The notes under the pieces: model-generated
The model's input: the letters and a program-made list of their open reading frames with translations, nothing else
Told to the model about the DNA's origin: nothing
Databases searched by the model: none
DNA from: Tolypothrix bouteillei VB521301
GTDB taxonomy: Bacteria > Cyanobacteriota > Cyanobacteriia > Cyanobacteriales > Nostocaceae
Reading direction: 5' to 3'
DNA: 64,000 nucleotides
Assembly: GCF_000760695.4 (NCBI RefSeq)
Contig: NZ_JHEG04000001.1
Span: 4,110,885 to 4,174,884, forward strand
Program-made: the position numbers and the translations under genes
Shown here: positions 9,377-49,714 of the stretch, in pieces
How positions within the stretch are numbered: position 1 is the first letter of the stretch
Layout: each line of letters begins with the position of its first letter

Positions 9377-9567
9377 GTGTATTTTTTGTGTTATTTTATT
9401 CACAAGTTTTCATTATCTCTCAATGATTTCCAATTGTCAACTAGGAAAATCTAAATTTTGCTACCGGCTACCCCCTATCCCCACTCCCCATTTTCAAGAT
9501 AATAGTGGACAATCAGAATCTATCGTGTAGAATCGAAACCAACTTATATCGTATAAAATAGTTCTTT

Positions 9568-10962: not shown

Positions 10963-10995
10963 ATCAGGTTGAGAGAGAGTATCCCTGTTTTGTAA

Positions 10996-11137: not shown

Positions 11138-11384
11138 CGGACTAAAATGTCTTCCTTATCTTCAAAAGATCGAATTTGAAGTAATTCAAGAATTTCCTCA
11201 AGAGTTTCATCAGAAGTTGTTTCAAGTTGTTGAATAGCAAACTCCTTTGTTTGATATGTTGAGCGAGAATATCAGCTCCGTTCATACATCTTAAACTCTC
11301 TCCCTTATCTCCCTTATCTCCCTTGTCTCCCTTGTCTTCATAAAAAGCTATACTAACAATGGTAAGGTCAAAAACACTTTCACC

Positions 11385-12260
11385 ATGTTACTCCCCAAAA
11401 CTCAATTGATTGGTCTCAAAGCTGATTCCTTTCGCCATCCACTCGATCTGGAGGCAACTCAAGCACTGAAGCAGATCCCTGGTGTCGATATGATAGTACG
11501 GAGTATCTTGGGACCTCTGGCGGAGCAGGTGTTTTATGTAGAAAATATTGCATCAAGTGTTCTGGTTGGTGAAAAACAACTGCCTCACTTACACCAGTTG
11601 TTGCTAGACGCTTGCAAAATATTAGATATAGAGCCACCTCAGTTGTATGTGAGACAGCATCCCGCGCCTAACGCTTACACCTTTGCCATGCGGGGGAAAC
11701 AGCCGTTTATTGTGGTGCATACTTCTTTGATTGATATGCTCGAACCCGAAGAAATTCAGGCGGTGATTGCTCATGAGTTGGGACATCTCAAGTGCGACCA
11801 CAGTGTTTACTTGACTCCAGTGAATATATTGATATTGGCAGCAGCAGTGGTGCCAAATGTTGGATCTTTTTTGGCTCAGGCAATACAAGCACAGCTTTTG
11901 GAATGGATACGCTGTGCTGAGTTTACTTGCGATCGCGCCGCGTTGTTGGCAACTCAAAATCCTAGGGTCGTGATGTCGGTGTTGATGAAACTTGCAGGTG
12001 GTTCGCCGACTCTAGCACCGCAGCTTAACCTGGATGCTTTCATTGCCCAAGCTCGTGCTTATGATGAGATTAGCAAGACAGAGTTGGGTGAAATGGTGAA
12101 AGCTACCCGGACATCTCAGTTAACTCATCCGGTACCCGTACTGAGAGCTAGAGAGATCGATCGCTGGGCAAGCAGCAAAGAATATCAAAAGTTGTTGCAA
12201 AATCAAAAAATAGGTTATAATAGTGAAGTTGCTACCAAGGGCGAGTGGCGAAACTGGTAG
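11385..12260 (+). CDS. M48-family zinc metalloprotease (HtpX-like)
   Basis: The 291-residue protein carries the zinc-binding motif H130-E-L-G-H134 within AVIAHELGHLKCDH, and a likely third ligand Glu179 in RCAEFTCDRAAL. A hydrophobic stretch (VNILILAAAVVPNVGSFLAQ) follows the motif. M48 proteins are membrane-associated proteases for damaged or misfolded membrane proteins; the substrate here is unknown. The start is ATG at 11385. The last seven codons and the stop are encoded by the 5' part of tRNA-Leu(CAA), so the gene and the tRNA overlap by 22 bases. Confidence 0.88.
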   Translation: MLLPKTQLIGLKADSFRHPLDLEATQALKQIPGVDMIVRSILGPLAEQVFYVENIASSVLVGEKQLPHLHQLLLDACKILDIEPPQLYVRQHPAPNAYTFAMRGKQPFIVVHTSLIDMLEPEEIQAVIAHELGHLKCDHSVYLTPVNILILAAAVVPNVGSFLAQAIQAQLLEWIRCAEFTCDRAALLATQNPRVVMSVLMKLAGGSPTLAPQLNLDAFIAQARAYDEISKTELGEMVKATRTSQLTHPVPVLRAREIDRWASSKEYQKLLQNQKIGYNSEVATKGEWRNW

Positions 12261-34781: not shown

Positions 34782-36170
34782 ATGAGATCGGAAATAGAGC
34801 TTTATAAAAAAAAAGACGGATATGTTAGAAACTCCATTCTATTACTATTAGCATTTGCTACTGCTTTCTTTCCTCGAATTATAGACGCTATAGGCGCACC
34901 TCCAACTATTAATTTTGTTCACTTTGTAATTGTTCCTCTTGCTTGTGGAATTATAATTAGTACAACTAAAGTTAGGAATAAAAAGCAGAAATCTATTGCG
35001 AAAATTCTCTTAATAAGCTTATTCGTCCTACTAGGTGTCATGATTATTAGTGCTCTTCTAAATCAAGCTGGAGTTATTAATGTTTTCTTAGATTGGATGT
35101 TGCTTACTGAGCCTTTTCTAGTAATTATAGCAATGGTTTCTATCCCCTTTTCTATTGAAAGGTTCAAAAAGTTTAAAACTTGGATTATGGGCTTTATTAG
35201 CCTACATATTTTTTTGGCTTTTGCCCAGCACTTTCTAATTACCTTTGGCATTCTTCGAGTAACTAGTATGCAGCCCTTTGACAATGTCCAAGGAGTTTTC
35301 TACCTTTCTGGCTCTGGCCATGTTGTTGGTGCTTCTGTTTCTATGTCTTTTGGTTTGTACTTTTGGCTCAGTACAAAAGGAACCCCAATCTGGTTGCGAG
35401 CTTCTGTGTTTACTACAGCCTTCATTCAACTTTTATTTGCTGATGCAAAGCAGGTAATCGTAGTCTGGATGATAGCCTGGGTACTACTGGTACTAACTAG
35501 ATTAAAAGACATAAAAACTGCTCTACAATATATAATAGCTGCTATATTGGTTAGTTATTTGCTATATTGGTGTATATACAACGTGGAAGCCTTTGTTGCT
35601 TTTAAAGGCTGGATTAGACCAGAACTTTACGGTCCTGAAGGTAAAGCTACAATACTTAAGAGTGTACCTTTTCAAATAATTCCTTCGTATTATAAATCAT
35701 CCTTAAATTGGCTATTTGGTTTGGGTCCCGGTCACACTATTGGACGGTTGGGGGGGTGGATGTTAAAAGACTATAGTAGTTTATTAGAGCCATTAGGTGC
35801 TACTATTCATCCTGCTAGTCAAGCTGTTTGGTCTTTCTGGTTCAGTCCAGAGTATTATTGGCTGGACTCAAGTTTTTTCGCTCCTTTATGGGGCTGGGCA
35901 GGAATTTGGGGAGATTTAGGATTTTTGGGTCTGGCAGCTTATTTGTTTATCTGTTCAATCGTCTGGTGTCGGATTTGCCAGGATGACTTTTCCAGGTTTC
36001 AGTTACTTACTGTAATGATTTATGGTTTTATTTTTACTCAGATGGAAGAACCTGGATATATGCTCTCTACAGCAATGCTCATTGGTTTGGCATGGCAAGA
36101 ACGTCAAATTATCAGAGCTACCCGGAAGAGCTTTCTATACCCCAATGGAGCTATTAATCAATCGCTCTAA
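34782..36170 (+). CDS. O-antigen ligase/polymerase-like membrane protein
   Basis: The 462-residue protein is strongly hydrophobic with about ten membrane helices. A long extramembrane loop lies at about 285-375 (YGPEGKATILKSVPFQIIPS, then FGLGPGHTIGRLGGW). This is the plan of Wzy polymerases and WaaL ligases, in which the loop carries catalytic residues. With an ABC exporter in the same locus, a ligase role is at least as likely as polymerisation; sequence alone does not settle it. It lies 24 bases downstream of the last GT4 gene. Confidence 0.75.
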   Translation: MRSEIELYKKKDGYVRNSILLLLAFATAFFPRIIDAIGAPPTINFVHFVIVPLACGIIISTTKVRNKKQKSIAKILLISLFVLLGVMIISALLNQAGVINVFLDWMLLTEPFLVIIAMVSIPFSIERFKKFKTWIMGFISLHIFLAFAQHFLITFGILRVTSMQPFDNVQGVFYLSGSGHVVGASVSMSFGLYFWLSTKGTPIWLRASVFTTAFIQLLFADAKQVIVVWMIAWVLLVLTRLKDIKTALQYIIAAILVSYLLYWCIYNVEAFVAFKGWIRPELYGPEGKATILKSVPFQIIPSYYKSSLNWLFGLGPGHTIGRLGGWMLKDYSSLLEPLGATIHPASQAVWSFWFSPEYYWLDSSFFAPLWGWAGIWGDLGFLGLAAYLFICSIVWCRICQDDFSRFQLLTVMIYGFIFTQMEEPGYMLSTAMLIGLAWQERQIIRATRKSFLYPNGAINQSL

Positions 36171-36408
36171 CTAACGATAGTATTTTTTTTAAATAATTTT
36201 ATAATGTTTATTAAAGATCGTAAATTTTAGAGAATTTTAAGATATTATCCCAACATTATACGTAATTTTAATCTGGATTTTAATGCTTGTTTTTTGAAAG
36301 TCATTAAGTAATAGATTGGTCGGTTATGAACCGTTGAGGTATTCTATAAACTCTTGTAACGTCAATTATATTTTATAAGTAATTTTGACGGAACTATTGT
36401 GGGTAAAA
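36171..36408. other. AT-rich spacer upstream of the beta-helix gene
   Basis: About 240 AT-rich bases with no gene-like frame. The break after a run of tightly spaced genes suggests a separate promoter for the beta-helix gene. Confidence 0.4.
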
Positions 36409-38373
36409 ATGAAACATTTTTCATCAGTCATATTTTTTATACCACTGCTAGGCTGCGTTTACGGAGGCATTTCCTCCATAGCGCAGGTTCAAACCAGTAC
36501 ATCATGTACGCCGAACATCAAAGGTATTCAGGGCAAATACCCTGAAAAAATGAATTTTGTCAACGTTACAGCCTACCCTTTCTGCGTCAAAACAAACCTT
36601 AATCCCGAAAACCGAGAGGCTGTAAGGCGGAATACCATTGCTATTCAAAAAGCAATTGATGAAGTTGCTAATCGGCAATTTGCTATCAAAACATTGTATT
36701 TTCCTAAAGGTGTTTATTATTTCGATAATACCCTTGATTTTACAAATAACGGTTGGCAAAAGCTTCCCCGTTATTTATCCGTATTGGGCGATAGTCCAAA
36801 GGATTCGATTATTAAGCTTGTTGATAACGCGCCAGGTTTCAAAAATCCCGATCGACCTAAGGTCTTCTGGAAAATGGCAAATTCCAACCGGGCGCAGAAC
36901 GACGCGCACAACAATTATGTACGCGACCTTAGTATCAGGACAGGAGCCAATAATCTTGGGGTAGTAGCAGTTGATTACGTTGCTAACAACAATGGTACTA
37001 TCGAGAACGTTGCAATCCGCTCCGACGATCCTCAAAAACGTGGTGCGGTTGGGCTGGGTATGTTGCAAAGGTGGCCTGGTCCTTCGTTCGTCAAAGATAT
37101 TGAGGTTGAAGGCTTTGACTACGGCATCAAACTTTTAAGCGGTCAATACGGCGTTTTCTTTGAGAAAGTTATCCTCAAGGATCAATTGAAAGTCGGCTTT
37201 TATGATAACAATTACGCTGTAGTGCGTAATTTTGTGAGTAGCAATAAAAATCCGGTACCGGCATTCCAATCTAGTAAACAACCAGAGCAGCATTCGACAA
37301 TAATTGATGCCGTTGCTGTATATACCGGGAAAAAAGCAACTGATACGCCTGCATTCGATGTAGGAGCTTCCCAAAGCTTCTTACGTAACGCGACTATCAA
37401 AGGATATAAATACTCTTTGATAAAGGATACAACGAAATTAAGTGGTTTTATTCGCGAGTACGCATCGAAAAAGTCCAAGCTATTCTCCAAAAGCCCAGAC
37501 GTGTCAATGAATATTCCCGTCCCATCCTCTATTCAGTGCGATAGCTGCAACGACCCAAAAAACTGGTATATCATTGAATCAAAAGGTCCAACTCGTAACT
37601 GGGTCGGACATGATTACACTGACGAAATTCAAAAGGCATTTGCATCTGGCAAGCCAGTCATTCAATTTGCACAGATTCCGGGTCTTCCATCCAAAGATAC
37701 ATGGCCCACTAATGTTATTCGCTTCCGTAAACCACTCATCGTTCCTTCCCACGTTAAGCGGATCAATTTCTGGTATCAAGGCAACGATAAAACTACGAAT
37801 TTTCCCGCAGGCAAATCGCTTTACGTTGTAAGTGGCAAAAAAACTGATACTCCACTCATCCTGGATACCCCAGGCGGTGGCGGAATCCATCACATTGGAT
37901 CGCGTACCCTGCTGATTAAATCCTCGTGTATTGACTATAAATCTGTTCCAGGAGCAGGCAATGTCTATTTTGAAGATTACTGTGGCTCCTTTACAGTAGC
38001 CAAAGGACAAAAAGCCTATGGTTGGGCTCTTAATCCAGAAAGAGAGCGGTATATTCACAACAAGGGTGGCTCGTTACGTATTGTTGGATTAAAATACGAG
38101 GGCAATCAGACTGTTATTAAAACATTCGATGGTGGTAAAACTGAATTGCTAGGCGGCTACATTTATGCCTTAGGGGATTGGGCCAAAAATCGAGCTATCT
38201 TTGAAAGCTATGATTCCGAACATTCTCTTATCTATCTCGTCGTCAACCACGGTCATGCCGGTTACGATTGGTCAGTAAAGGAAGTGCGTGGCAACACGGT
38301 GAAGACCCGCAGTGGTGTCTCGGATCGTAACGTGCTTCATGTCGGTTACAAAGCAGTCCCCGCTCCGAGGTAG
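36409..38373 (+). CDS. Secreted beta-helix protein, pectate-lyase superfamily type
   Basis: I choose ATG at 36409 over an upstream TTG because it begins a signal peptide (MKHFSSVIFFIPLLGCVYGG). LLGC could be a lipobox with Cys16, or cleavage may fall after SSIAQ near residue 26. The 654-residue product has the opening of pectate-lyase-superfamily helices (RRNTIAIQKAIDEVANRQ, LYFPKGVYYFDNTLDF), repeated N-G-x-I-x-N-V-type turns, and a second such repeat later (EIQKAFASGKPVIQFAQIPG). Such proteins bind or cut polysaccharides. Its place at the end of the polysaccharide locus suggests a role in glycan trimming or retention. A decayed relative lies at 14984-15905. Confidence 0.8.
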   Translation: MKHFSSVIFFIPLLGCVYGGISSIAQVQTSTSCTPNIKGIQGKYPEKMNFVNVTAYPFCVKTNLNPENREAVRRNTIAIQKAIDEVANRQFAIKTLYFPKGVYYFDNTLDFTNNGWQKLPRYLSVLGDSPKDSIIKLVDNAPGFKNPDRPKVFWKMANSNRAQNDAHNNYVRDLSIRTGANNLGVVAVDYVANNNGTIENVAIRSDDPQKRGAVGLGMLQRWPGPSFVKDIEVEGFDYGIKLLSGQYGVFFEKVILKDQLKVGFYDNNYAVVRNFVSSNKNPVPAFQSSKQPEQHSTIIDAVAVYTGKKATDTPAFDVGASQSFLRNATIKGYKYSLIKDTTKLSGFIREYASKKSKLFSKSPDVSMNIPVPSSIQCDSCNDPKNWYIIESKGPTRNWVGHDYTDEIQKAFASGKPVIQFAQIPGLPSKDTWPTNVIRFRKPLIVPSHVKRINFWYQGNDKTTNFPAGKSLYVVSGKKTDTPLILDTPGGGGIHHIGSRTLLIKSSCIDYKSVPGAGNVYFEDYCGSFTVAKGQKAYGWALNPERERYIHNKGGSLRIVGLKYEGNQTVIKTFDGGKTELLGGYIYALGDWAKNRAIFESYDSEHSLIYLVVNHGHAGYDWSVKEVRGNTVKTRSGVSDRNVLHVGYKAVPAPR

Positions 38374-38405
38374 TGTCGAATACTGTTAACGAATTACACA
38401 AAACC

Positions 38406-39587
38406 TCAATTTGTCAGGTGGGTAATCTTGGCATTGTCCACTTTATGGTTAAGAGGAAATGCTAAGTATTTAGCACCTTTTCTATAAATTAACCAATATA
38501 AGAAAGATTGGATATACAAGAATTTATCTTGCCAACGTTCTCTTACTTGAAGATGGTAAAGGCTTTTGCCAAGAAACCTTTCTGAAGTTCTAACTTCACC
38601 AAAAAGCTCGTTATAGATTTTAGGTAACAAAGTAGGTACTATATTATCTTCTGTTATCTTTTGCCATGTTTCTTTTGGTAAAGCAACTCCAAAAAGATGA
38701 TTCACCAAGTATAGCCCTAAACAAAGTATCCGCCTACAGCCTAAAGTTTGGCTCAATTCGAGGACTTTTTCCCAATTTAGGTTCGGGTGATTTTGAACAA
38801 GCGTAGCAAGATCGCACAGCCATGCTAGTCGTATCCACATATGCCTAGATCCATGTACGCAGAGAATTGGTATCCAATCTTCTAAAGGTAAGTTGGATAT
38901 AGTTGTGCCTGCAAAGGAAAACGGTTCTATATCTTGCCACAAGTGTTTGGGTTCAATGGAAGACACATACTTTGGAGCAATTCGCCAATGCACTTCTATA
39001 AGAATTCCTTTTTGAGGGTGAAAAAAGTCATAGGTATGCTCAGTTTTAGCTCTCAAGTAGTCAAGTTCTTCTGCATAAGTCATTTCAAGTTTGGGTTGAT
39101 ATCCCTGAGAAATCAGCAGTTTTTTAACAGCAAAGATATCTTGTTGCTGAACTAAGATATCCAAGTCTACGAACTGACGCAAAGCTACATTACCGTATAT
39201 TAAGTTTGCTAAAACTGGTCCTTTGTATGGTACGGCGACAATTCCTTGCTCTTTCAAGAAATTTAGGAGCTTAAGAAGTTCTCCAGTAAGAAATAAGTTA
39301 CGCGTAGCAATAGATTGAAAGATGCTGCGGAACTTTTGTAAGGTAGATTCAGAGATATCTTTTGGACAAATCGTATTAAGGCGAGTGTATAGCAAAGGTA
39401 TTACACCATGTGTATATGCTAAGTGAATTAAATTCTCCCAATCTATCTTTTTTTGAACCAATATTTGAATTTTTTGCGTAGTTACATCATCAATTTCTGG
39501 ACGGATACAACAAAGTATTAGCTCTATTTCGGGTTTAGTACTAATTCGTAAATTTTGATTTTCTGGGTTTTTAGATAAAGTTGTCAT
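38406..39587 (-). CDS. Lasso-cluster nucleotidyltransferase family protein
   Basis: The 393-residue protein has PYKGPVLANLIYGNVALRQF followed by VDLDILV (Asp141, Asp143), the metal-binding D-x-D of the uncharacterised nucleotidyltransferase family found beside lasso-peptide and related peptide clusters (PF14907-type). In related lasso clusters such a protein modifies the phosphorylated C-terminus set by the cluster kinase. Its start overlaps the exporter stop by four bases (ATGA), so the two are translationally coupled. It converges with the beta-helix gene 32 bases away. Confidence 0.82.
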   Translation of the reverse strand: MTTLSKNPENQNLRISTKPEIELILCCIRPEIDDVTTQKIQILVQKKIDWENLIHLAYTHGVIPLLYTRLNTICPKDISESTLQKFRSIFQSIATRNLFLTGELLKLLNFLKEQGIVAVPYKGPVLANLIYGNVALRQFVDLDILVQQQDIFAVKKLLISQGYQPKLEMTYAEELDYLRAKTEHTYDFFHPQKGILIEVHWRIAPKYVSSIEPKHLWQDIEPFSFAGTTISNLPLEDWIPILCVHGSRHMWIRLAWLCDLATLVQNHPNLNWEKVLELSQTLGCRRILCLGLYLVNHLFGVALPKETWQKITEDNIVPTLLPKIYNELFGEVRTSERFLGKSLYHLQVRERWQDKFLYIQSFLYWLIYRKGAKYLAFPLNHKVDNAKITHLTN

Positions 39588-41461
39588 AAATGAGTTGAAT
39601 TACCTTTGTGTTGTTTTAAACTTCCAACCACACTACTTTCAAATGAATTGCTTGTACCAGCTTGCATTTGTGATTTCCAAGATTCAGCGTAGAGACTGTC
39701 TTGAGCCAAGAGTTCATCGTGAGTACCTGACTCCACAATCTGACCGGCACGCATAACATGAATAATGTCTGCCCGCATAGCCAAAGTGAAACGGTGAGTA
39801 ATGACAATAGCAGTGCGATCGCTTGCCAAGGTGCGAAATCGTTCTAGCCAGTCGTGTTCAGCCCAAGGGTCCATAGCGCTTGTAGGTTCATCCAAAATAA
39901 TGATTTGAGCGCGTCTAAAAAATGCCCGTGCCAGAGCCAGACGCTGCCATTGGCCACCGCTTAAATCGGTTCCTTCTGGAAACAACTTACCCAACATCGT
40001 GTTATACCCTTGGGGCAGTTGCATAATCTTATCGTCAATACCCGAGGCTTTAGCAGCAGCTTCAATCTCTGTCTGATTCGATGCTGCCCATATATCACCC
40101 AAAGCAATATTTTCACTAACTGTTGTGTAGTAGGGAATTGGAGACTGAAACAAAACAGTAATTAACCTACGGAGTTCTTGTACGGAAAACTCACGTATAT
40201 CTATGCCATCTAATTCAATGCTTCCTGATTCAGGGTCATAAAAGCGACATAAAAGCTTAATCAGCGTACTTTTTCCTGCACCATTATCACCAACAACTAC
40301 CACAATTTTGCCAGCAGGCAATATTAGGTTAAAGTTCTCTAACACTGGTTTTTCTGTACCGGGATAGCGGAACGTAACTTGCCGAAAGTGAATTCCCTGT
40401 TTGGGTATTGCTGGTACGGGCAAAGGATTAGGCGGATTTACAATTTTGGGTTGGATCTGCAAGAACTCAAACAAGTTACTGATAAATAAACCATTACGAT
40501 AAATCTGCCCTAAGTTACCTAACAAAGATTTGACAATACCCTGTCCTTGATTAAACGCCTGAACAAAGAGGGCTAAATCCCCTAAACTCAGAATTCCTAG
40601 CAATACTTGCCTTCCCATCCAAGCTAAAGCAACACCAGAAACGAGCAGCACAAAGATGGCAGCAGCAAATCGACCTAAAGTTTGCTTTTTCAGTAGCTTA
40701 AGTTTTTCTTGTGTGAGTTGTCGATGCAACTTTTTGTAAGACGACTGAAAATAATCACCAAAGTCAAACAGCCGTACTTCCGCCGCCGTTTGGTCACCGG
40801 TCAAAAGCGAGTCATAATAAATTAACCAGCGACGAACAGTTGTTGTTCGTTGCGACCATTGATACTGAATTTTATTTAGATACATTAATATATAGAATGC
40901 AGGGAAAGCACTAACTACTAGAATCATCGGCAGCCAAAGACCATAGGGTAACAAGATTGCTGCCACAGCAAACAGAGTAATGCTATTTTGCAATAAACTA
41001 CCCGTACTTTCTAGTAATGCGAGAGCTCGCCCACTTGCTCCTTCCTTAGCTCGGTTAAGCTTATCGTTATCCTCTGAGGATTCATAAAAGCAGTAATCAA
41101 CAGCAACGCACTGTTTATGAATCAAATCAGTGACATAATCGTGTACTAGTTCTGATTGAGCAGTACGAATCCATTCACCCGCACTACTAAAAAACTCGCC
41201 TACGAGTAACAAACCTCCAATTACCCCTACGGGAGCCAAAATCTTCTGGATGCTCGTCCAAGAAACACCGCCTCCAACAACTACCACCAAATTATCTACT
41301 AGTTGTCGAAGCAGAGTCATGGAGATAGCGGGAAGCAATCCTTGAACTAGCAGCATAATTATCCAAGCTACAGTCCAGTATCGCGATGCGGCCCAAACCA
41401 AGCTAAAAATTTTATGTATTTGAAATAGAATTTTATTCGCGCTACTAAATTGTCTTAACAA
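39584..41461 (-). CDS. Lasso-peptide ABC exporter (D protein type)
   Basis: A 625-residue half-transporter: membrane domain at about 20-330, ATPase domain at about 355-605. Walker A VGDNGAGKST, signature DLSGGQWQRLALARAF, Walker B IIILDEPTSAMD and the switch His in VITHRFTL are all intact, so the homodimer should hydrolyse ATP at both sites. There is no N-terminal C39 peptidase, as expected when leader removal is done by B2. The start is TTG at 41461 with AGAGGTG ten bases upstream. The neighbours indicate export of the mature peptide and self-protection. Confidence 0.88.
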   Translation of the reverse strand: MLRQFSSANKILFQIHKIFSLVWAASRYWTVAWIIMLLVQGLLPAISMTLLRQLVDNLVVVVGGGVSWTSIQKILAPVGVIGGLLLVGEFFSSAGEWIRTAQSELVHDYVTDLIHKQCVAVDYCFYESSEDNDKLNRAKEGASGRALALLESTGSLLQNSITLFAVAAILLPYGLWLPMILVVSAFPAFYILMYLNKIQYQWSQRTTTVRRWLIYYDSLLTGDQTAAEVRLFDFGDYFQSSYKKLHRQLTQEKLKLLKKQTLGRFAAAIFVLLVSGVALAWMGRQVLLGILSLGDLALFVQAFNQGQGIVKSLLGNLGQIYRNGLFISNLFEFLQIQPKIVNPPNPLPVPAIPKQGIHFRQVTFRYPGTEKPVLENFNLILPAGKIVVVVGDNGAGKSTLIKLLCRFYDPESGSIELDGIDIREFSVQELRRLITVLFQSPIPYYTTVSENIALGDIWAASNQTEIEAAAKASGIDDKIMQLPQGYNTMLGKLFPEGTDLSGGQWQRLALARAFFRRAQIIILDEPTSAMDPWAEHDWLERFRTLASDRTAIVITHRFTLAMRADIIHVMRAGQIVESGTHDELLAQDSLYAESWKSQMQAGTSNSFESSVVGSLKQHKGNSTHL

Positions 41462-41542
41462 CGTAACAGCACCTCTTAATATTAGGGATAAAGAATAGAG
41501 TTTGAAGCCACTTGACAGCTAACAGTAAACGATAAAAGGCAG

Positions 41543-42445
41543 CTAGAAAATTCTCGCCATCGTTTTTTGGTCACAATTTGATGTTGGTATCAAGTCATTC
41601 TCAATCAACTTTACAAGTTGTGGTAAATCAGTTAAGCCGGGTTTGCGAGTGAAACGACAGAAACTAATATTTTTAATAAGCTCGCCACACAAACGCATAT
41701 GAGAATTCATAAATTCTGCATCTGTCATGACTTTCATGGCGCGAGTATGACGTACTAACTCAATAAAAGCTTCCTGAGGTTGTAGCTTGACGATTTCGTG
41801 AGATGTTCCTTTAGCAAGTACATAAATTCGCTCAAGCGGTAAGGGAGATGAGTAGAAACCACGAGCAAACTTATAAGATAATTTGGATGCATTTTGGAAA
41901 ACCGGATGCAACCCCTTAGTATCGTGTCCTAAAGAAGTAAGTGCCTCGGGAAAAAGTTTGAACTGAGGATAAGCAGGAATAACAATCGGGTTGCCTGCCG
42001 CAAATTGAATAGCCATGGCATCATCTGTTAATATGTCGTACCCTTTACTATGAAATGCTGCTGCTAAAGTTGACTTACCCCACCCGGAACCACCCATAAA
42101 CGCCACTGCTTTTTTGTCCATACGAATACAACTTGCATGTAGAACTAGTAGTCCCCTTTGACGCAGCAGTACGCATAATACAGGACCTAAAATTACAGTG
42201 CTTAGAAGAGTTTCGTCCACATGCGGTACGGGATTCATAACAATTTCCTGTCCGTCACGAATCAAAAACTCACCTACTTCTGGTATTCCTCCCACAACAT
42301 TTTTGCTACCTTCTTGTTCCCTTGCAGTTGCACGATCTACTTTACCAAATCGTACAATTATATCAGGCTCATCCTCAGTTTCAATTAATTGAGCAAGTGG
42401 CAATTCTGACGCAATGCATAAGTTGTATGCTTTGTAGATTTTCAT
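41543..42445 (-). CDS. HprK-like kinase of the lasso cluster
   Basis: The 300-residue protein has a P-loop FMGGSGWGKSTLAAAF (118-126 in detail) and the HPr-kinase-type DDAMAIQF segment. In the paeninodin-type clusters, a homologous kinase phosphorylates the C-terminal serine of the precursor. Here the precursor ends G-K-L-E, so a C-terminal serine is absent and the target must be different (for example an internal serine) or the tail must be trimmed first. It is downstream of the precursor gene, separated by a 25-base hairpin. Confidence 0.85.
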   Translation of the reverse strand: MKIYKAYNLCIASELPLAQLIETEDEPDIIVRFGKVDRATAREQEGSKNVVGGIPEVGEFLIRDGQEIVMNPVPHVDETLLSTVILGPVLCVLLRQRGLLVLHASCIRMDKKAVAFMGGSGWGKSTLAAAFHSKGYDILTDDAMAIQFAAGNPIVIPAYPQFKLFPEALTSLGHDTKGLHPVFQNASKLSYKFARGFYSSPLPLERIYVLAKGTSHEIVKLQPQEAFIELVRHTRAMKVMTDAEFMNSHMRLCGELIKNISFCRFTRKPGLTDLPQLVKLIENDLIPTSNCDQKTMARIF

Positions 42446-42487
42446 AATAAATCCGAGGTTAGATAAGTATTGCCTACCAAAAGTTTC

Positions 42488-42513
42488 GTAAGGTGGGCAA
42501 TGCCCACCCTACT
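42488..42513 (-). terminator. GTGGGCA/TGCCCAC hairpin between precursor and kinase
   Basis: GGTGGGC (42492-42498) pairs with GCCCACC (42502-42508), extended by a GTA/TAC end. It is a common dispersed cyanobacterial repeat. In this place it may partly stop transcription after the precursor gene, giving more precursor than kinase and exporter message. Confidence 0.55.
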
Positions 42514-42566
42514 TTATCTTTCAAAAGTCCAATAGGATTCCTACATTTGCGCCTTTGCGTCTAACT

Positions 42567-42773
42567 TTATTCCAACTTTCCGCAATTAGCGTTAGATGGA
42601 GCAGGTCCTATACAAAGATCGCTTGAACCCGCGTCGGGGGAAGCCGCAGCACTGGAGTTAACATTGCCGTTGAAGAACAAAAAGTCATTGTTTGATGAGC
42701 TGCCAAGAATTTGGGTAATCTCAGCAACATTACCGTAAACAGTCAGCTTGGGAGCTGTGTATCTACTTTTCAT
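42567..42773 (-). CDS. Lasso-peptide precursor (A)
   Basis: The 68-residue peptide starts MKSRYTAPKLTVYGNVAEIT, which fits the lasso leader motif Y5-x2-P8-x-L10-x3-G14-x5-T20 bound by the B1 recognition domain. With Thr20 at position -2, the core would begin at Ile22 (ILGSSSNND) and Asp30 would be core residue 9. A core from Gly24 would put Asp30 at residue 7. Both ring sizes are known. The core would be 45-47 residues, longer than characterised cores, with two Cys (54, 64). The start is ATG at 42773 behind CAGGAGATAG. It sits between the cyclase and kinase genes. Confidence 0.85.
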   Translation of the reverse strand: MKSRYTAPKLTVYGNVAEITQILGSSSNNDFLFFNGNVNSSAAASPDAGSSDLCIGPAPSNANCGKLE

Positions 42774-42827
42774 GAATCTATCTCCTGATTTTGAGTATAT
42801 AGTTAACGGAGTTATTTGTTGCAGATA

Positions 42828-42963
42828 GCACCAACCTGGACTTACAGCGTAGCTTTTTGATTAAAACCACAACCTGCCAAGCTCTCAGTCTGTGGTGATG
42901 CACCAGCTTAACTGGACTTACGGCGATCGCACTGTTATCTATACAGATTCACCACCTGCCAAG
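42828..42963 (-). promoter_or_regulatory. Tandem structured-repeat leader upstream of the precursor gene
   Basis: Two similar units lie in the 199-base gap between cyclase and precursor. On the minus strand each reads CTTGGCAGGT-x-GTG ... TAAGTCCAG ... GGTGC (42963-42900 and 42881-42828). In each, CTTGG can pair with CCAG(G) to close a stem. Their location in the 5' leader of the precursor message suggests a regulatory RNA or protein-binding repeat, but no known riboswitch fits. Confidence 0.4.
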
Positions 42964-42972
42964 TTTACGTAA

Positions 42973-45003
42973 TTAGGGTACTAATCCTTTAAATTCCAGC
43001 GATAATGCCAAAATCACTGCTTGCCAAACTGCTATACAATCACTGTCAGCGATTTGACTCCCTGGTGATAAGATTCGTTGATAAGCTGCTTGCAAAAAAT
43101 CCAAATCAATATATTTTGCCATGCTTTCTATTTTGTGAGACATGACCTCATCTAGAAGTTGACGATCGCGGTTTAAAAACCCGTCATTGAAATTGGGTGT
43201 CAGATCCGCTTTTCCCCCACGCCATTGAACTTTCTCTGGCAAAATACCTGCCAAACCACGGCGCATAATCATCCGGCTCCAACCTTGGTACAACTTTTGC
43301 TCGGAAGGTAGTGCCAGACAGAATTCAACCAGTCTTTTATCCATAAATGGATGACGAGCTTCCAAGGAAAACATTGCCGCACACCGATCCATCTGCTCTA
43401 GGGTGTATGCTAATATACCCTGAGTTAGATTACGCCAATGCTCTTCTCTTACACTTAGGGGTTGGTTGGTGGAACTAACTAACTGCTGGATACGTTTATC
43501 CAAATCAATACTTTCTGCAAAGTCACGATTGACTAGAGAAGTTTGGGAAGTTGCTGAAGCTAGTGACCTCTTCTGCTTTCTCCGCCACTGGAAAAACTTC
43601 TGTAGTACTCTTGGAAGTAGAGGTTTAAGCCCGTGATGCAAAATTAACTGTTTGCGCGAACTACCAAAATGCTTGTGAATTAACTGCACGGCATTGGCAA
43701 ATTCTATCCAACGCCACTGTTTTGCTAAATTCTTGAGGTAAGGCAGACCGTAACCCCGAAACATAGCACTAGGAGAGAAATTAAAGTGTTGCGAAACTTT
43801 TGTTACTTCCTGTATAAAGGTTTTCCACTTTCCTTGATATGCAAGTTCTGTAAGCCTGCTCATACCGTGACAAACTGTCGTGTCACCGTCAAAACCATCA
43901 AGGCAAATTCGCATCCCTAAATTCTTGATAGTGCGGTTCAAGTTCCAAGGATAAAAATAACTGGAACCAAGCAGGGCTTCATCTTCGTACTGAAAAATGC
44001 AATCGAGGTTAGATAGCGGACTCAGCTGGTCTCCATAAACATAATGAGGAATGCATCCTCCTTGGTCTAATACTGCATTAATATACGGACGTTCGTCACA
44101 CTCGGTAATCTTATCAAAAATAGTTGAGATTGTATATAATTGATATTTTTCTGATTCAGTTAATAAGTTTCGAGCTACACAAGTTACAGCAGAAGAATCT
44201 AATCCACCACTCAAGTGGCTGATTATGGGAAAAGCGCTACGCAGACGGCAACGCACTGCTTCTGTAAAAATTTTTTTAAATTCCTCGGCGTAATCTTCAT
44301 CAGACTCTAACTTAATTTCACGGTTAGGGTCGAGAGACCAGTAAGACCACAGGCGTAGTTCTGATTCATTGACAACCATACTGTGCGCTGGTGGAAGCCG
44401 TAGGATGTCTTTGTAGGTTGTGATGCCTTTGTCTTCCATCATCAAGGTCAAAAAGTCAGCAATTCTAACTTCATCAAGGCAATGAGGTACTTCTGCTAAA
44501 CACAGCAATGCCTTGATCTCAGAGGCAAATAAAAAGCCTTGACGCGGTTGACAATAGTAATAAAAAGGCTTGACTCCAAAATGATCTCGCGCACAGAATA
44601 AACATTTCTTGTGCCTATCCCAAATCGCAAAGGCAAAGTCTCCCAAAAGATGCTCCGGACAAGATTCACCCCACTTCTTATAAGCAGCAAGGATAAATTC
44701 ACTATCTGTAATTTTTTCTATTGGGCGATCGCAGAAATCTAGCTTAGAGATCAACTCCTCTCGATTATCAATACGAGCATCTGCGGTAATAGCTAAATCG
44801 CCTGTTTCATTAACGAGTGGTAGTTTCTCGAATATAGATTCTGGCGTCGTCCACAGCATTCGGTGTCCCAAACCTACAGACCCGCTAACCCAAATGTCTG
44901 CACCATCGGGTCCCCGGTGTACCAAGGTATCAGTCATTGACAGTAGCTCTTGATGCTCTACATAACGATTATCAAGGTAATATATCCCTACAATACCGCT
45001 CAT
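42973..45003 (-). CDS. Lasso-peptide cyclase, asparagine-synthetase-like (C)
   Basis: The 676-residue protein has an N-terminal glutamine-amidotransferase-like domain (about 1-200) and an asparagine synthetase domain with the ATP pyrophosphatase loop SGGLDSS at 265-271. Residue 2 is Ser, not the Cys nucleophile of glutamine-dependent synthetases, so glutaminase activity should be lost, as expected for lasso cyclases, which adenylate the acceptor Asp or Glu and join it to the core N-terminus. It overlaps the B2 gene by four bases. ATG at 45003 follows GGAG. Confidence 0.93.
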   Translation of the reverse strand: MSGIVGIYYLDNRYVEHQELLSMTDTLVHRGPDGADIWVSGSVGLGHRMLWTTPESIFEKLPLVNETGDLAITADARIDNREELISKLDFCDRPIEKITDSEFILAAYKKWGESCPEHLLGDFAFAIWDRHKKCLFCARDHFGVKPFYYYCQPRQGFLFASEIKALLCLAEVPHCLDEVRIADFLTLMMEDKGITTYKDILRLPPAHSMVVNESELRLWSYWSLDPNREIKLESDEDYAEEFKKIFTEAVRCRLRSAFPIISHLSGGLDSSAVTCVARNLLTESEKYQLYTISTIFDKITECDERPYINAVLDQGGCIPHYVYGDQLSPLSNLDCIFQYEDEALLGSSYFYPWNLNRTIKNLGMRICLDGFDGDTTVCHGMSRLTELAYQGKWKTFIQEVTKVSQHFNFSPSAMFRGYGLPYLKNLAKQWRWIEFANAVQLIHKHFGSSRKQLILHHGLKPLLPRVLQKFFQWRRKQKRSLASATSQTSLVNRDFAESIDLDKRIQQLVSSTNQPLSVREEHWRNLTQGILAYTLEQMDRCAAMFSLEARHPFMDKRLVEFCLALPSEQKLYQGWSRMIMRRGLAGILPEKVQWRGGKADLTPNFNDGFLNRDRQLLDEVMSHKIESMAKYIDLDFLQAAYQRILSPGSQIADSDCIAVWQAVILALSLEFKGLVP

Positions 45004-45452
45004 AATTTGACTCCTTGTAAAGATGGCAGTGGAGTAAATCGAGAGAGGTCTATCAAATTACCAATCGCAACTCGTCCTTCATACTCAATCCAAGCATGAG
45101 CCTCTAACCTTCCTGCTGTGTCTTTGGCAACACCTATCCGTAGTTCGGACGAATACCCGTAACGGCTCATTAGCACCCAAGCAGTCAAAGCACGCGCCAA
45201 ACACTTTACCCCATATGGCATATAACGGCTAGCTACGTTTACAGCCCAAATAATTTTGCTCACAGAAACAGAACTGCTAGGAGAAGTAAAAATCAGGAAA
45301 TTCGATTGACCGATCTTGTTCAGAAGTTTAAGTAATACGCGAAACTCCAACAGCCATAACCCCATCCTGATAGTTCCCAACAGAATCACAGTTATTGCTA
45401 ACAGAGAGCGATCGCTCCCTGAAAGTTTGAACAAGCTATGTAGCTGTCTCAT
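45000..45452 (-). CDS. Lasso-peptide leader protease, transglutaminase-like (B2)
   Basis: The 150-residue protein matches the lasso B2 protease plan: Cys84 in PYGVKCLARALTAWVLMSRY and His119 in LEAHAWIEYEGRVAIGN give the transglutaminase-like catalytic pair. An N-terminal hydrophobic part (AITVILLGTIRMGLWLL) may contact the membrane. It cuts the leader from the precursor. It overlaps B1 by 17 bases and the cyclase by four, consistent with one operon. Confidence 0.92.
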   Translation of the reverse strand: MRQLHSLFKLSGSDRSLLAITVILLGTIRMGLWLLEFRVLLKLLNKIGQSNFLIFTSPSSSVSVSKIIWAVNVASRYMPYGVKCLARALTAWVLMSRYGYSSELRIGVAKDTAGRLEAHAWIEYEGRVAIGNLIDLSRFTPLPSLQGVKL

Positions 45453-45750
45453 CCCTTACCTCAACTAGCCCTGTAGTTTTTAAATTATTTAGCAGTTCTA
45501 ATAAGTCACTCATGCAAACTTCTGCTTCAACTTCGTACTCTTGTAGAAGCACTTGTTTAATCTTCTCTACATGCTGAGGTTGCTGAATTAAATTCCAAAT
45601 TTGTGTACCAACCTGATTCAATCCGTGATAAACCCCTGTCTTGAGATTCAAAATTACTGCTTCTCCACCCAGATCTGAAGAAATTTGCTCTCCAACAGCT
45701 ACCACTACAGATGACTCTAACACTTTCCCATCTAGTGATTTTTGTGCCAT
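45436..45750 (-). CDS. PqqD-like leader-recognition protein (lasso B1, RRE)
   Basis: A small PqqD-fold protein, about 104 residues, with SSDLGGEAVILNLKTGVYHG, LNQVGTQIWNLIQQP and a C-terminal helix-rich LLELLNNLKTTGLVEV. It binds the leader of the precursor and presents it to the B2 protease. A TTG at 45792 would add 14 residues; I prefer ATG at 45750 because the longer form adds only a Lys/Ser/Glu-rich tail not typical of the fold. It is the first gene of the lasso operon. Confidence 0.9.
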   Translation of the reverse strand: MAQKSLDGKVLESSVVVAVGEQISSDLGGEAVILNLKTGVYHGLNQVGTQIWNLIQQPQHVEKIKQVLLQEYEVEAEVCMSDLLELLNNLKTTGLVEVRDETAT

Positions 45751-45792
45751 AAGCTTGAGATTTTCCCTTTTTGATTCAATACTTTTTTTCAA

Positions 45793-46473
45793 AATTTTTA
45801 CAAAAAACTCTGTTGCTATAAATTTTTAGCCAAAAATTATTTAGTAACAGATGATTCTCGAACCTTCCCATCTTTCATTGCAAAGGTTTTTTCATCCAGA
45901 TATAGCAATCCTATTTGAAATCTAAACCAGGGAGACAAGGAGGACAAGGAAGACAAGGAAGAGGTGTTTGTAAATCATTTATGATTGCTATAGACTATTA
46001 TTAATTCTGTTGCACGACCAACCTAACAATTTTATTGGCAGTGATTCTTGCAGCATAATAGCCTGACAACGAAACTTTATTGAAAAAAATTACGTTGTAA
46101 CAATTTTTACATTCACATCTTTTTGAAGCAGCGTTTCCCCGATACCATAGTTTTCAAAGATTCAAGGCTTTACTACATTTCACTGTGTATAGTGGTAGAT
46201 TCTCAACCCAAACACAAAACCCTATATTCCCAATTTGGAGATGCTTTTCAATTTCGTTCTCATTCTAGTATACGCTCAATGAGGTTTCTAAAACGATAAG
46301 TAAATTTATAAAAAAAACATATTAATTTTAAGAAATTGTAAATGAATATTTGATAATCCTAGTGAAATCTATTTTTTTGTCAAGAAAGGTTTCAATTCTC
46401 TTTTAAAATATGTTCCTCAATTGATATTGCTTAATTAACCAAACTTGGATAGAAACATTCTTGTAACTGAGTT
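45793..46473. other. AT-rich region upstream of the lasso operon
   Basis: About 680 bases without a supported gene. It contains a GGAGACAAGGA/GGACAAGGA purine repeat at about 45930-45955, the common intergenic word TAAATCATTTATGATTGC nearby, and long AT runs. The lasso operon promoter should lie close to 45800. I see no other structure. Confidence 0.5.
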
Positions 46474-46800
46474 TTACTGTGAATCAACCGTCACCTTTTG
46501 GAGTAAAGCCATCCACATATCTGGTGGCTCGGCATAATAATCAATTTCTGCAACCTGATATCGACATAAAATAGAACCATCCCGCAAAATTATGTAATCT
46601 CCTGGTTTGATACCTTTACCTTGTCCCGTCATATAACCTGTCGTTCCACCCTCTGCTACCTCAAATACATAATCGCAACCGCAAATATACTGAGTGTAAT
46701 CATAAGTTTTGTTCTTCTGGCGTTTTAATTTATTCAGTAGAAAGTTCAGTATTAACAAACAAACGATATTGAAGTTGATGCCTGACCTGATAAAAAACAT
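46474..46800 (-). CDS. Membrane-anchored hypothetical protein
   Basis: The 108-residue product has a hydrophobic N-terminal anchor (NFNIVCLLILNFLLNKL), a basic hinge, and a small domain with GCDYVFEVAEGGTTGYMTGQ and PGDYIILRDGSILCRYQVAE, probably a beta-barrel-like module. I recognise no family. ATG at 46800 is at the edge of an AT-rich spacer with only a weak ribosome site. It is a single gene. Confidence 0.55.
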   Translation of the reverse strand: MFFIRSGINFNIVCLLILNFLLNKLKRQKNKTYDYTQYICGCDYVFEVAEGGTTGYMTGQGKGIKPGDYIILRDGSILCRYQVAEIDYYAEPPDMWMALLQKVTVDSQ

Positions 46801-47091
46801 AAGTTTTTTGAAAATTTACAGAGAATTGGCATGAGAGATGCCCTGATGAGGGCTAGAAATCAAAACCTAAAATGAAAATGAATACCAAGTAAAAGCTAAA
46901 CCTATAGATTGTTATTTTAAGTTATGTCAGCCTTAGATGGCGAATGTAAGCTAAAAAAGCTACTACCTAAAGGTAGAAGTTAAGAAAGCATCGGGTCGAA
47001 GAACATGACAAATCCGGTTGCCTAAAATTAATTGTCAAAGTACTTGACACTTCCCCTGGAGTTACTGCTATATTAATTAACGTGAATGTGA
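46801..47091. other. Spacer before tRNA-Gln
   Basis: About 290 bases with no gene. The part just before the tRNA has TTGACA at 47044-47049 and a TATTAATTAA box about 20 bases later, a plausible promoter for tRNA-Gln. Confidence 0.45.
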
Positions 47092-47163
47092 TGGGGCGTA
47101 GCCAAGTGGTAAGGCAGCGGGTTTTGGTCCCGCCATCCCTAGGTTCGAATCCTAGCGCCCCAG
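47092..47163 (+). tRNA. tRNA-Gln (anticodon TTG)
   Basis: Acceptor arms TGGGGCG and CGCCCCA pair. The D arm, the anticodon stem-loop GCGGG-TTTTGGT-CCCGC (anticodon TTG) and the T arm CTAGGTTCGAATCCTAG are clear. It is 72 bases, with discriminator G and no encoded CCA. It decodes CAA and CAG. Confidence 0.96.
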
Positions 47164-47169
47164 TATTTA

Positions 47170-47199
47170 ACAGGGTAGACATGAAAGAGTCTACCCTGT
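47170..47199 (+). terminator. Terminator after tRNA-Gln
   Basis: ACAGGGTAGAC (47170-47180) and GTCTACCCTGT (47189-47199) form a perfect 11-bp stem with an eight-base loop, followed by AATTTTATG. It starts seven bases after the tRNA. Confidence 0.85.
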
Positions 47200-47527
47200 A
47201 ATTTTATGCGATAATCCTCGCAATTGTTACTGAGTTGACAGGTAACTGGCAAATTTATGTTGCATAATGATACTGTATCTATAATTGTGCATCGCCTCAG
47301 TGTAACTTCTACTCTTCAAAACTTCAAACAGGGTGAATAAGTCGATCTCTCGTTTCTGATAAAGTTTGCATCTCCTGAAGATTGTCAGGAACACGCAATT
47401 AGCGCTTGAATTCATTGATCGAGTGTGTCAAACCACTTAGCAGTTCGACATACGTAAGTGTGTATCCACAATAGAGCTGCACTGTGCAACTACGTAAAAC
47501 CACAAATTAGAAAATTTATACAAGGCT
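47200..47527. other. Spacer upstream of the autokinase gene
   Basis: About 330 bases with no protein-like frame. It separates the tRNA terminator from the autokinase and should hold its promoter. Confidence 0.45.
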
Positions 47528-49714
47528 ATGCTGAAGTCAGAACAATATCAACACCCGTCATCGCAAGCCTATGCCACTCAGTCAAATGAAGATGAAGGGG
47601 GGCTAAATTTAGGTCAAGTGGGAGCATCTCTCCGTCGCCGTGCATTGTTAATCGCTGGTGTAACAGGTGTAGTGGCTACAGCAGCAGTTTTAAAGGCAGA
47701 AACAGATCCTCCAGTCTATGAAGGAAAGTTTGAAATTTTAACCAAACCAGTGACTGGAGAAAGTCGCGCAGTCGCTAACGTTCCTCAAACCTTGGAGTCC
47801 CAAGGCAAAGGAATAGCACCTCCCGAACAAGCAGAACCCGTTGCCACAACAATTCAAGTTCTCAAAAGCCGTGGGATGCTAGATCCAGTCGTTAAAAGAC
47901 TCCAAGTTAAATACCAAACTAAATATCCAAAATTGGATTACCAGAAAATTACAAAACTTTTAGAAATAGAATCACAACAACAAAATATTTTAGAAGTTAA
48001 ATTTACTAGCCCAGACGAGGAGCTAGTCCGAGATACTTTAACTTTGCTGAAAGATGCTTACATTGCCTATAGTTTAAAAGAACGTCGAGGCGAAGTTCAG
48101 CAGGCAATTAATTTTGTGAGAGAACAAAAAACTCCTTTAGAGGCAAAAGTTAGAGCTTGGCAAAGAAAACTGCAAAAAATTCGACAAGAGCATAATTTGG
48201 TAGAGCCAGCACAGAAAGCTCAAGAAGTATCCGCTCAAATTGCTACTTTGACGCAACAGCAGGCAGAAAATCGCGTACAGCTAGAACAGATGATAGCGAG
48301 TTACCAGGACTTGCAAAGGGAGTTGGCGCAACAACCAGGGGATAGGGCTGGTAACTCAGTGCTGAGTGAAAATGTTCGCTATCAAAAGATATTAGATCAG
48401 CTGCAAACAGTGGAAATTGAAGTGAAAAAAGATGCAGCTAAATTCACAGATACAAATCCAAGTCTGCAATTCTTGCAGGAACAGCGAGCAAATTTACTCC
48501 CAATGCTAACGGCTGAAGAAAATCGCGTCAAAAGAGATTATCAAAGCCGCATCCGAGCACTCCAAGCTCGCGATCGCGCTTTGGGTGAAAAAATTAGCTA
48601 CTTTAACACCTACCTGAGAAATTTAGCCAGTGTTATTCGTCAATACGATGATACTCAGAGGGACTTAAAGATTGTTACGGATGGTCTGGTTCAATTTACA
48701 GCCAAAGAACAAGCACTGAAAATCGAACAAGCTCAATCATTGCCATCATGGAAGTTACTTGACCCCCGGCTGGCAGAAGTGACAGAGCCTGAGGCTGTTA
48801 AAGACAGTACTAAACGGAATTTGGCTTTGGGAACGTTGTTAGGTTTACTACTTGGTACAGGCGCAGCTTTGGTGATAGATAAGCTGAGCAACGTTTTTTA
48901 CACATCTAAAGACCTAAAAGAAGCGACTCGATTACCACTGTTGGGAGTCGTTCCTCTAAGAAAAGAGCTTGGCGCAATGGCTTGGCAAGAAGCAGCAAGT
49001 GAGGAGCAACAAGCAGCCCGTGCTTCCTTCTTTGAAGTTTTTCGCTCTCTGTACACTAACATTCTTCTTCTAAGTTCAGATGCTCCGATTCGTTCGCTAG
49101 TTATTAGTTCCCCAGGACAAGAAGATGGCAAGACAACCGTTGCAATACACTTAGCACTTGCAGCCGCAGCGATGGGGCATCGAGTTTTGCTAGTAGATGC
49201 CAATTTACGCAACCCTACCATACACAGTCGTGTTGGTCTAATGAACATTCAGGGACTAACCGATATTATTGCCCAAGACTTAGACTGGAATAATGTTATT
49301 GAGCGATCGCCCTTAGAGGATAACTTGTTTGTGTTGAGTGCTGGTCCAACGCCACCGGACTCCATTCGATTGCTTGCATCTCGTAAAATGCAGGATTTGA
49401 TGAATGACTTACAATCCACGTTTGATTTAGTCATTTATGACACATCCCCTCTAGTTGGTTTTGCAGATGCTAACTTGCTAGCAGTTAACACAAATGGTCT
49501 TGTACTCGTTGCTGGGTTGGGCAAGCTCAAACGGACTATGTTCCAGCAAGCACTAGAAGAACTCCAGGTCTCGGGTACGCCAATTTTAGGAGTCATAGCC
49601 AACAAATCAAAGGATGCCACTACAACCTCTTACAGCTACTATCAGCAATATTACAAGAGTATGAGCGCTGAAAGAGTTGGACACAACGAAGTTTTAGACT
49701 CCATTAATTCTTAG
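47528..49714 (+). CDS. Wzc-like polysaccharide co-polymerase / tyrosine autokinase
   Basis: The 728-residue protein has a first membrane helix near 38-56, a long periplasmic Wzz-type coiled-coil region (about 60-420), a second helix near 430-448 (LALGTLLGLLLGTGAALVID), and a cytoplasmic BY-kinase domain with Walker A SSPGQEDGKTT, Walker A' VLLVDANLRNP and Walker B FDLVIYDTSPL. The tail ends in a Tyr cluster (TSYSYYQQYYKS), the autophosphorylation site. Such proteins control chain length and export of surface glycans. It is separate from the main locus but likely serves it or another glycan. Confidence 0.93.
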   Translation: MLKSEQYQHPSSQAYATQSNEDEGGLNLGQVGASLRRRALLIAGVTGVVATAAVLKAETDPPVYEGKFEILTKPVTGESRAVANVPQTLESQGKGIAPPEQAEPVATTIQVLKSRGMLDPVVKRLQVKYQTKYPKLDYQKITKLLEIESQQQNILEVKFTSPDEELVRDTLTLLKDAYIAYSLKERRGEVQQAINFVREQKTPLEAKVRAWQRKLQKIRQEHNLVEPAQKAQEVSAQIATLTQQQAENRVQLEQMIASYQDLQRELAQQPGDRAGNSVLSENVRYQKILDQLQTVEIEVKKDAAKFTDTNPSLQFLQEQRANLLPMLTAEENRVKRDYQSRIRALQARDRALGEKISYFNTYLRNLASVIRQYDDTQRDLKIVTDGLVQFTAKEQALKIEQAQSLPSWKLLDPRLAEVTEPEAVKDSTKRNLALGTLLGLLLGTGAALVIDKLSNVFYTSKDLKEATRLPLLGVVPLRKELGAMAWQEAASEEQQAARASFFEVFRSLYTNILLLSSDAPIRSLVISSPGQEDGKTTVAIHLALAAAAMGHRVLLVDANLRNPTIHSRVGLMNIQGLTDIIAQDLDWNNVIERSPLEDNLFVLSAGPTPPDSIRLLASRKMQDLMNDLQSTFDLVIYDTSPLVGFADANLLAVNTNGLVLVAGLGKLKRTMFQQALEELQVSGTPILGVIANKSKDATTTSYSYYQQYYKSMSAERVGHNEVLDSINS

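Follow-up and report, generated by a model that had tools for sequence, protein, structure and literature searches.

The 64,000-nucleotide (nt) stretch of Tolypothrix bouteillei VB521301 analyzed here (contig NZ_JHEG04000001.1; G000:C1:4110885-4174884; henceforth the window) carries on its minus strand, at positions 38406-45750, seven genes which, judged by their sequences, are a complete lasso-peptide cluster, the sole one detected in the 9.9-Mb genome. The predicted product has a core of 47 residues, i.e., a macrolactam ring of nine residues followed by a loop and tail of 38 residues. Conservation among relatives singles out one serine within this tail, Ser29 of the core, as the best candidate for a phosphate acceptor of the HPr-kinase-like enzyme encoded in the cluster. 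It further suggests a disulfide loop in the same tail. We consider it rather probable that the cassette as a whole makes a lasso peptide which is phosphorylated at the internal tail serine, looped by a tail disulfide and decorated at its phosphate. That the genome holds another lasso cluster was considered and rejected: PF13471, the family of the leader peptidase, has one match at E 0.001, and the precursor model NF033528 matches in one place.

The 68-aa precursor A (42567-42773; all genes and features of the cluster are on the minus strand) scores 77.5 bits against NF033528 lasso_cyano, the cut-off being 33. Its leader, MKSRYTAPKLTVYGNVAEITQ, comprises residues 1-21 up to the predicted cleavage site (42711-42773; NF033521, 22.5 bits versus 19) and follows the pattern Y5xxP8xL10xxxG14.....T20 Q21. 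The YxxPxL leader, the Thr at position -2 and a ring-closing Asp or Glu at positions 7-9, here Asp9, are the marks of a lasso precursor. The ring is accordingly predicted as ILGSSSNND (42684-42710), closed between Ile1 and Asp9 of the core. The loop and tail (42570-42683) end in CIGPAPSNANCGKLE; the last residues are ...CGKLE, and the C-terminal residue is Glu.

Relatives were collected by searches of genomes of the window's family and of the phylum and from named GTDB genomes, among the matches listed Spirirestis, Scytonema, Calothrix PCC 7103, Pelatocladus, Brasilonema and Mastigocoleus; the patterns used to scan these named genomes are generic for Asn-synthetase-like proteins. Calothrix sp. 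PCC 7103 (L055) and Scytonema tolypothrichoides VB-61278 (L054) are two of the named carriers. In all, 119 clusters with 111 distinct cyclases were obtained. NF033528 matched at E 0.001 in 90 of 217 family genomes (63 over the cut-off). Of 386 genomes drawn across the phylum 23 had a match at E 0.01 (10 over the cut-off); there was no match in the single same-genus genome listed among the family genomes. Clusters whose cyclase reaches at least 760 bits against that of the window, i.e., the relatives of the window, are designated the long-tail group. It comprises 94 non-redundant precursors from 61 clusters, the window itself being one of them. Eight repeat loci, a spurious open reading frame (ORF; L167), an N-masked precursor (L041) and identical cores were dropped before counting. 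The precursor finder requires the leader pattern, so Thr at -2 is present by construction; precursors lacking the pattern were not counted, and L187 and L190 yielded no precursor.

Asp occupies core position 9 in 88 of the 94 precursors, that of the window included; five of the remaining six have Asp10 and one has Asp8. Provided that nothing is trimmed, the predicted core exceeds 33 residues in 92/94, with a median of 43 in the group. The more distant lasso clusters which these searches also returned have short cores (median 24; 51 non-redundant precursors).

The tail serine (precursor Ser50, 42624-42626) is part of a G-S-x-D motif. The form G[ST]x[DN] is present past the ring in 70/94 precursors compared to 10.9 +/- 3.0 after shuffling of the tails (maximum 22 in 2000 shuffles). 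Because the precursors are related, a subset of 40 with less than 50% identity was built; here the motif is found in 32/40, and in shuffled tails in 4.9 +/- 2.1 (maximum 12). When widened to [GDSTN][ST]x[DN], the motif is contained in 83/94 precursors (shuffles 30.8 +/- 4.3, maximum 47) and in 38/40 of the subset (14.0 +/- 2.9, maximum 24). At least one precursor of 59 out of 61 clusters has this wider form, L196 and L200 being the two without. From this conservation we infer that Ser29 is the best candidate acceptor. The distant clusters look different, with Ser as the last residue in 24 of the 51 precursors and the strict motif in 3/51. Two other acceptor sites were considered and ruled out: phosphorylation of a C-terminal Ser, since the precursor ends in Glu, and a BsfA-like phosphorylation of core position 3, since Ser occupies this position in 0/94 precursors.

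The cysteines of the tail obey an all-or-none rule. Forty-seven of the 94 precursors are devoid of Cys, 46 contain two and a single one contains one; random placement of as many Cys would produce an odd number in 41 (minimum 27 in 2000 rounds). In 44 of the 46 two-Cys precursors both residues lie past the motif Ser, and in 35 of these they start 4 or 5 residues beyond it. Because Cys come as none or two, which is indirect support, and mostly beyond the motif Ser, a tail disulfide as in pandonodin is predicted, in the window from core Cys33 (42612-42614) to Cys43 (42582-42584), spanning 42582-42614. Two tail Cys are also required of class IV lasso peptides, which have a tail-tail disulfide. One of the three precursors of L220, the sole single-Cys precursor of the 94, reads G-C-P-D-G where most relatives show G-S, i.e., a Ser-to-Cys exchange at the predicted acceptor.

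The kinase (41543-42445) passes no family cut-off; the best Pfam match is PF07475 with 18.6 bits, the gathering threshold being 33.3. Applied to three relatives the same model scores 37.9 bits for L062, which passes, and 29.9 and 31.3 bits for L079 and L071, which do not. PEP (phosphoenolpyruvate) carboxykinases and HPr kinases share a common fold. The AlphaFold2 model of the window's enzyme (pLDDT 90.3) matches both and is thus predicted to have the HPr kinase superfamily fold. A sequence search of solved structures gave seven matches with E values no higher than 1; a P-loop kinase ranked first at 0.095, and an HPr kinase followed at 0.34. The His-Lys-Asp-Asp set of HprK-like kinases is present as H103, K124, D141 and D142. 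Together with G121, G123 and S125 these residues are unchanged in 33/33 aligned sequences. When the set is enlarged to 74 sequences, two have Glu in place of D141 and 72 retain the Asp; the other motif residues are invariant. The spacing, starting at H103, is +15 G, +18 G, +20 G, +21 K, +22 S, +38 D and +39 D, identical to the BsfK motif as given in PMC10368454.

One kinase tree was built, of 101 rows and by a quick method that flagged several long branches as unsure. A clade of 62 rows (SH-aLRT 98) contains 54 rows labelled tail-Ser, four C-terminal-Ser, two other and two unlabelled; all tail-Ser rows are inside it. The neighbouring side of 31 rows (SH-aLRT 82) has 21 C-terminal-Ser, seven other, three unlabelled and no tail-Ser rows. 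Eight more rows are all labelled other. The C-terminal-Ser rows within the large clade are L066, L165 and L170, which carry the strict tail motif too, and L199, which does not. This agreement between kinase clade and tail type is support for a tail acceptor, not proof, because only cores of 28 residues or more could receive the tail-Ser label, and because whole clusters that descend together may explain part of it. Between the groups (56 versus 18 sequences) suggestive differences exist in kinase columns 8 (N/G), 95 (R/H), 136 (Y/H) and 235 (R/Y) and in a three-residue insertion. L196 and L200, the clusters without tail motif, both lack R95, and L196 lacks R235 as well. R95 is also missing in L056, L164 and L187, and R235 in L216; in view of these exceptions we draw no conclusion from these columns.

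Several observations weigh against the overall reading given at the outset. The strict motif is missing in 24/94 precursors, and even the wider form in 11/94. L199 has a kinase of the tail clade, yet both of its precursors end in Ser and have no strict motif. A ring Ser or Thr is present somewhere in 84/94 precursors and could serve as a ring site other than position 3. The tail-Ser label excluded cores ending in Ser, and short cores were not eligible for it; shared descent of whole cassettes alone could make the kinase clade match the tail type. Finally, at the threshold used the nucleotidyltransferase gene adjoins only 51 of the 111 distinct clusters, a number of them truncated where a contig stops.

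The remaining genes agree with a lasso cassette. The first-pass annotation had described seven minus-strand genes in the order B1, B2, C, A, kinase, exporter, nucleotidyltransferase, and all seven ORFs are indeed there and intact. The stop-start overlaps which it had reported exist at three of the six junctions, B1/B2 (17 nt), B2/C (4 nt) and exporter/nucleotidyltransferase (4 nt); the other three are gaps of 199 nt (C/A), 121 nt (A/kinase) and 81 nt (kinase/exporter). B1 (45436-45750) is a PqqD-type leader-binding protein (RRE; PF05402, 64.4 bits; NF033536, 76.6 bits, slightly below the cut-off of 80). It starts with ATG; an in-frame TTG at 45792 would lengthen it. B2 (45000-45452) is a transglutaminase-like leader peptidase (PF13471, 81.7 bits; NF033537, 114 bits) in which the Cys of KCLARAL and the His of EAHAWIE are both retained. 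The third catalytic residue of McjB we take to be an Asp 12 residues past the His; this position is Gly in the window and in 25/25 aligned relatives. C (42973-45003) is the Asn-synthetase-like lasso cyclase (NF033535 lass_lactam_cya, 1074 bits versus a cut-off of 525). It starts with MSGI and has no glutaminase Cys; M1, S2, G3, I4 and LSGGLDSS (264-271) are unchanged in 13/13 aligned sequences. A split B1/B2 pair with a cyclase of this type is what a lasso cluster calls for. Neither of the outcomes named beforehand as refuting, catalytic residues missing from C or B2 and a precursor with no relatives beside such genes, was encountered, with a reservation for the Gly in B2. Many relatives carry the same genes next to their precursors, and the full lasso set with kinase and nucleotidyltransferase, claimed from the bare sequence, stands.

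The exporter (39584-41461, TTG start) is an ATP-binding cassette (ABC) protein (PF00005, 108.5 bits; MsbA-like NCBIfam matches stay under cut-off). The nucleotidyltransferase-family protein, which is PsmN-like (38406-39587; PF14907, 215 bits), contains FVDLDILV and EVHW. Among the cluster nucleotidyltransferases a DxD-type motif is found in 49/51 and xHW in 35/51. It had no NCBIfam match at E 0.1, and neither this protein nor B2 had a match in the sequence search of solved structures. A palindrome (42488-42512) lies between the precursor and kinase genes, in a 121-nt region which folds with a z of -3.15. Its 21-nt core is matched at 10 places of the genome with at most one mismatch, i.e., it is a dispersed repeat, and might serve as an attenuator. 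The region separating the cyclase gene from the precursor gene contains two pairs of direct repeats of 14 nt (42836-42963), at a distance of about 80 nt.

The cluster is embedded in a polysaccharide locus. One flank encodes WecG, an ABC-2 exporter, several glycosyltransferases and a UDP-galactopyranose mutase; the other encodes a Wzz/bacterial tyrosine kinase (47528-49714, plus strand; PF02706 and TIGR01007 above cut-offs). The nearest membrane protein on the first of these flanks, outside the cluster (34782-36170, plus strand), is WaaL-like according to its AlphaFold2 model (pLDDT 84.7), which Foldseek matches to the O-antigen ligase WaaL, 7tpg, at E 4.1e-4 with TM-scores of 0.56 and 0.62; the protein has no Pfam match above cut-off and no NCBIfam match at E 0.1. 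At E 1e-10 it is the single match in the genome, and at E 1e-60 it occurs in 84 of 217 family genomes, once in each. The Wzz protein is matched at 14 places of the genome, some of them parts of one gene; its proximity is therefore less telling than that of the WaaL-like gene. A tRNA-Gln(TTG) (47092-47163, plus strand; tRNA scan and Rfam) marks the edge of the cassette, and a Rfam search of 36000-48000 returned nothing but this tRNA.

We compared 62 long-tail loci, the window excluded, with 32 other lasso loci; the loci are mostly about 20 kb in length, some cut by contig ends. At E 1e-10 the WaaL-like gene is present in 27/62 long-tail versus 2/32 other loci, the Wzz protein in 25/62 versus 6/32. 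At least one of 17 tested locus proteins is found in 39/62 versus 10/32; 23/62 match none. In all 16 loci that show both flanks, the cluster is enclosed by the two and has the opposite orientation, likewise in the window. A tRNA-Gln is present in 25 of the 62 loci, in each of them upstream of B1 and encoded on the other strand, again as in the window; any tRNA-Gln is seen in 2/32 other loci. Ten further loci came from genomes picked for a WaaL-like gene and no lasso_cyano match. In seven of them the WaaL-like and Wzz genes are adjacent without a lasso gene, and in six of these seven the tRNA-Gln lies in between. Relatives thus show the site filled or empty, and for much of the group the cluster can be regarded as a cassette with a single fixed location. 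A cassette present or absent at a single site provides a clean natural comparison for the question why such clusters lie in capsule or exopolysaccharide loci. Between the cluster and the WaaL-like gene is a pectate-lyase-like gene (36385-38373). Its relatives occupy the same gap in L201, L216 and L233, the last without a lasso cluster, and in L188 a relative stands beside the cluster.

The fixed site may reflect a function together with polysaccharide or a hot spot at the tRNA. That the cluster is a hot-spot passenger unrelated to the polysaccharide genes, which would leave its lasso nature untouched, has in our view an even chance. The adjoining tRNA-Gln, the flanking genes closed up in the empty sites, the pectate-lyase-like gene in the same gap of some genomes with or without the cluster, and the 23 loci without any of the 17 proteins all fit a passenger. 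On the other side stand the excess of locus proteins around long-tail clusters (39/62 compared to 10/32) and an independent case, the paeninodin-like clusters of Bacillota, which are also found in capsule loci (PMC13381572). A direct coupling, in which the phosphorylated, disulfide-looped tail would be joined to sugars or exopolysaccharide via the nucleotidyltransferase and the WaaL-like ligase to yield a knotted peptide tethered to the sugar coat, is a long shot.

As to the acceptor itself, the tail motif might be kept for threading, export or target binding while the kinase acts elsewhere, e.g., on a ring Ser or Thr. BsfK phosphorylates the ring Ser3 (PMC10368454) and LppK a Ser3 (PMC13381572), and candidate residues are not scarce in the rings of the group. 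Nevertheless, the known ring site, position 3, is never Ser, other ring positions not having been tested singly, and the tail Ser is found in a recurring sequence context; we regard this explanation as unlikely. Less likely still is that the residues past the conserved Ser are a follower whose trimming leaves this Ser at the C-terminus, with the kinase acting in the paeninodin manner. In distant lasso clusters with a kinase Ser is indeed last in 22/44 non-redundant precursors. However, the supposed follower would hold both Cys in 44/46 two-Cys precursors, which are needless in a discarded piece. A second peptidase gene is not seen in the window's cluster, and kinases with tail Ser and with C-terminal Ser are on different sides of the tree with four exceptions. 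A silent or decayed cluster is hardly credible with seven intact ORFs and retained catalytic motifs.

With Ser29 of the tail as the favoured acceptor the following pathway can be proposed. B1 would bind the YxxPxL leader, and the HPr-like kinase would phosphorylate Ser29 in G-S-x-D on the linear precursor, a timing taken from published work on PadeK and BsfK. B2 would then cut after Gln21, C would join the amine of Ile1 to the side chain of Asp9, and the ABC protein would export the product, after which Cys33 and Cys43 would form the tail disulfide. For the nucleotidyltransferase-family protein a role like that of PsmN, decoration of the phosphate, is probable by analogy to one characterized cluster, pseudomycoidin; a sugar at this place is likewise something we infer. 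If true, lasso kinases would have a further acceptor, inside the tail, besides the C-terminal Ser and the ring Ser3, and it would be set by a motif that can be recognized and by a kinase clade of its own. Such products would also exceed pandonodin, which according to a 2026 review has the longest tail (33 residues with an 18-residue tail; PMC13352647).

How does this cassette relate to known systems? The first-pass annotation had placed it near the paeninodin and pseudomycoidin clusters. The likeness in genes (PadeK, PsmK, PsmN) holds, i.e., lasso genes with an HPr-like kinase and, as in pseudomycoidin, a nucleotidyltransferase gene, the activity of which is predicted from PF14907. The likeness in the precursor does not. 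Kinases of this type phosphorylate a C-terminal Ser (PMC9266682, PMC8498205), whereas the window's precursor has its candidate Ser 18 residues before a C-terminal Glu. The addition of phosphate and then sugar to the tail in the paeninodin and pseudomycoidin manner, i.e., at a C-terminal Ser (PMC9266682), therefore cannot hold as it was put forward. Closer in one respect is BsfA/BsfK of Bradymonas sediminis, a lasso kinase with the same catalytic spacing and a precursor without a C-terminal Ser; its target is the ring Ser3, a residue absent from the window's group. Pandonodin, of class IV, shares the long tail and two Cys; it has 33 residues in total and A-D genes only (PMC13352647, PMC9266682), whereas the window has a predicted core of 47 residues with kinase and nucleotidyltransferase added. 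Within cyanobacteria, Cyanocohniella sp. LLY has a cluster with a long predicted core of 36 residues (PMC9332814); the accessible portion of that paper does not discuss a tail Ser, Cys pair, kinase or locus.

The cluster had also been called uncharacterized. Within the literature searched this is correct for the product; the family is already modelled by NCBI, the window passing both lasso_cyano and lass_lactam_cya (NF033528, NF033535), and two of six precursor homologues found bear the database name 'lasso peptide'. The 35-position model NF033528 covers precursor residues 1-35, so that neither the Ser motif of the tail nor the two Cys fall within it. In the literature searched cyanobacterial lasso clusters are listed, and no description of the tail Ser, Cys rule or genomic site was found; subscription papers were mostly outside this search, which therefore does not prove that such descriptions are absent. 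The kind of cluster is known; the very long core, the tail Ser motif and the none-or-two rule of Cys are apparently new.

Beyond lasso peptides proper, the cassette has a counterpart in the linear polyphosphorylated peptides of Bacillota, which share the RRE, an HprK-like kinase, an NTP transferase, an MsbA-like exporter and a location in polysaccharide loci; they are without cyclase and have signal-peptidase-like processing (PMC13381572). Three cyanobacterial clusters of our collection (L044, positions 3540-11748, also L049 and L050) carry B1, kinase, B2, exporter and a relative of the nucleotidyltransferase, with no cyclase match within the 19.5 kb examined. Each has two precursors of the type YSEPELKAHGKISG[LF]TQQVGGSGGF..., and in L044 two ORFs in between resemble glycosyltransferases, judged by eye only. 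These clusters resemble those of the linear polyphosphorylated peptides, with B2 replacing the signal peptidase.

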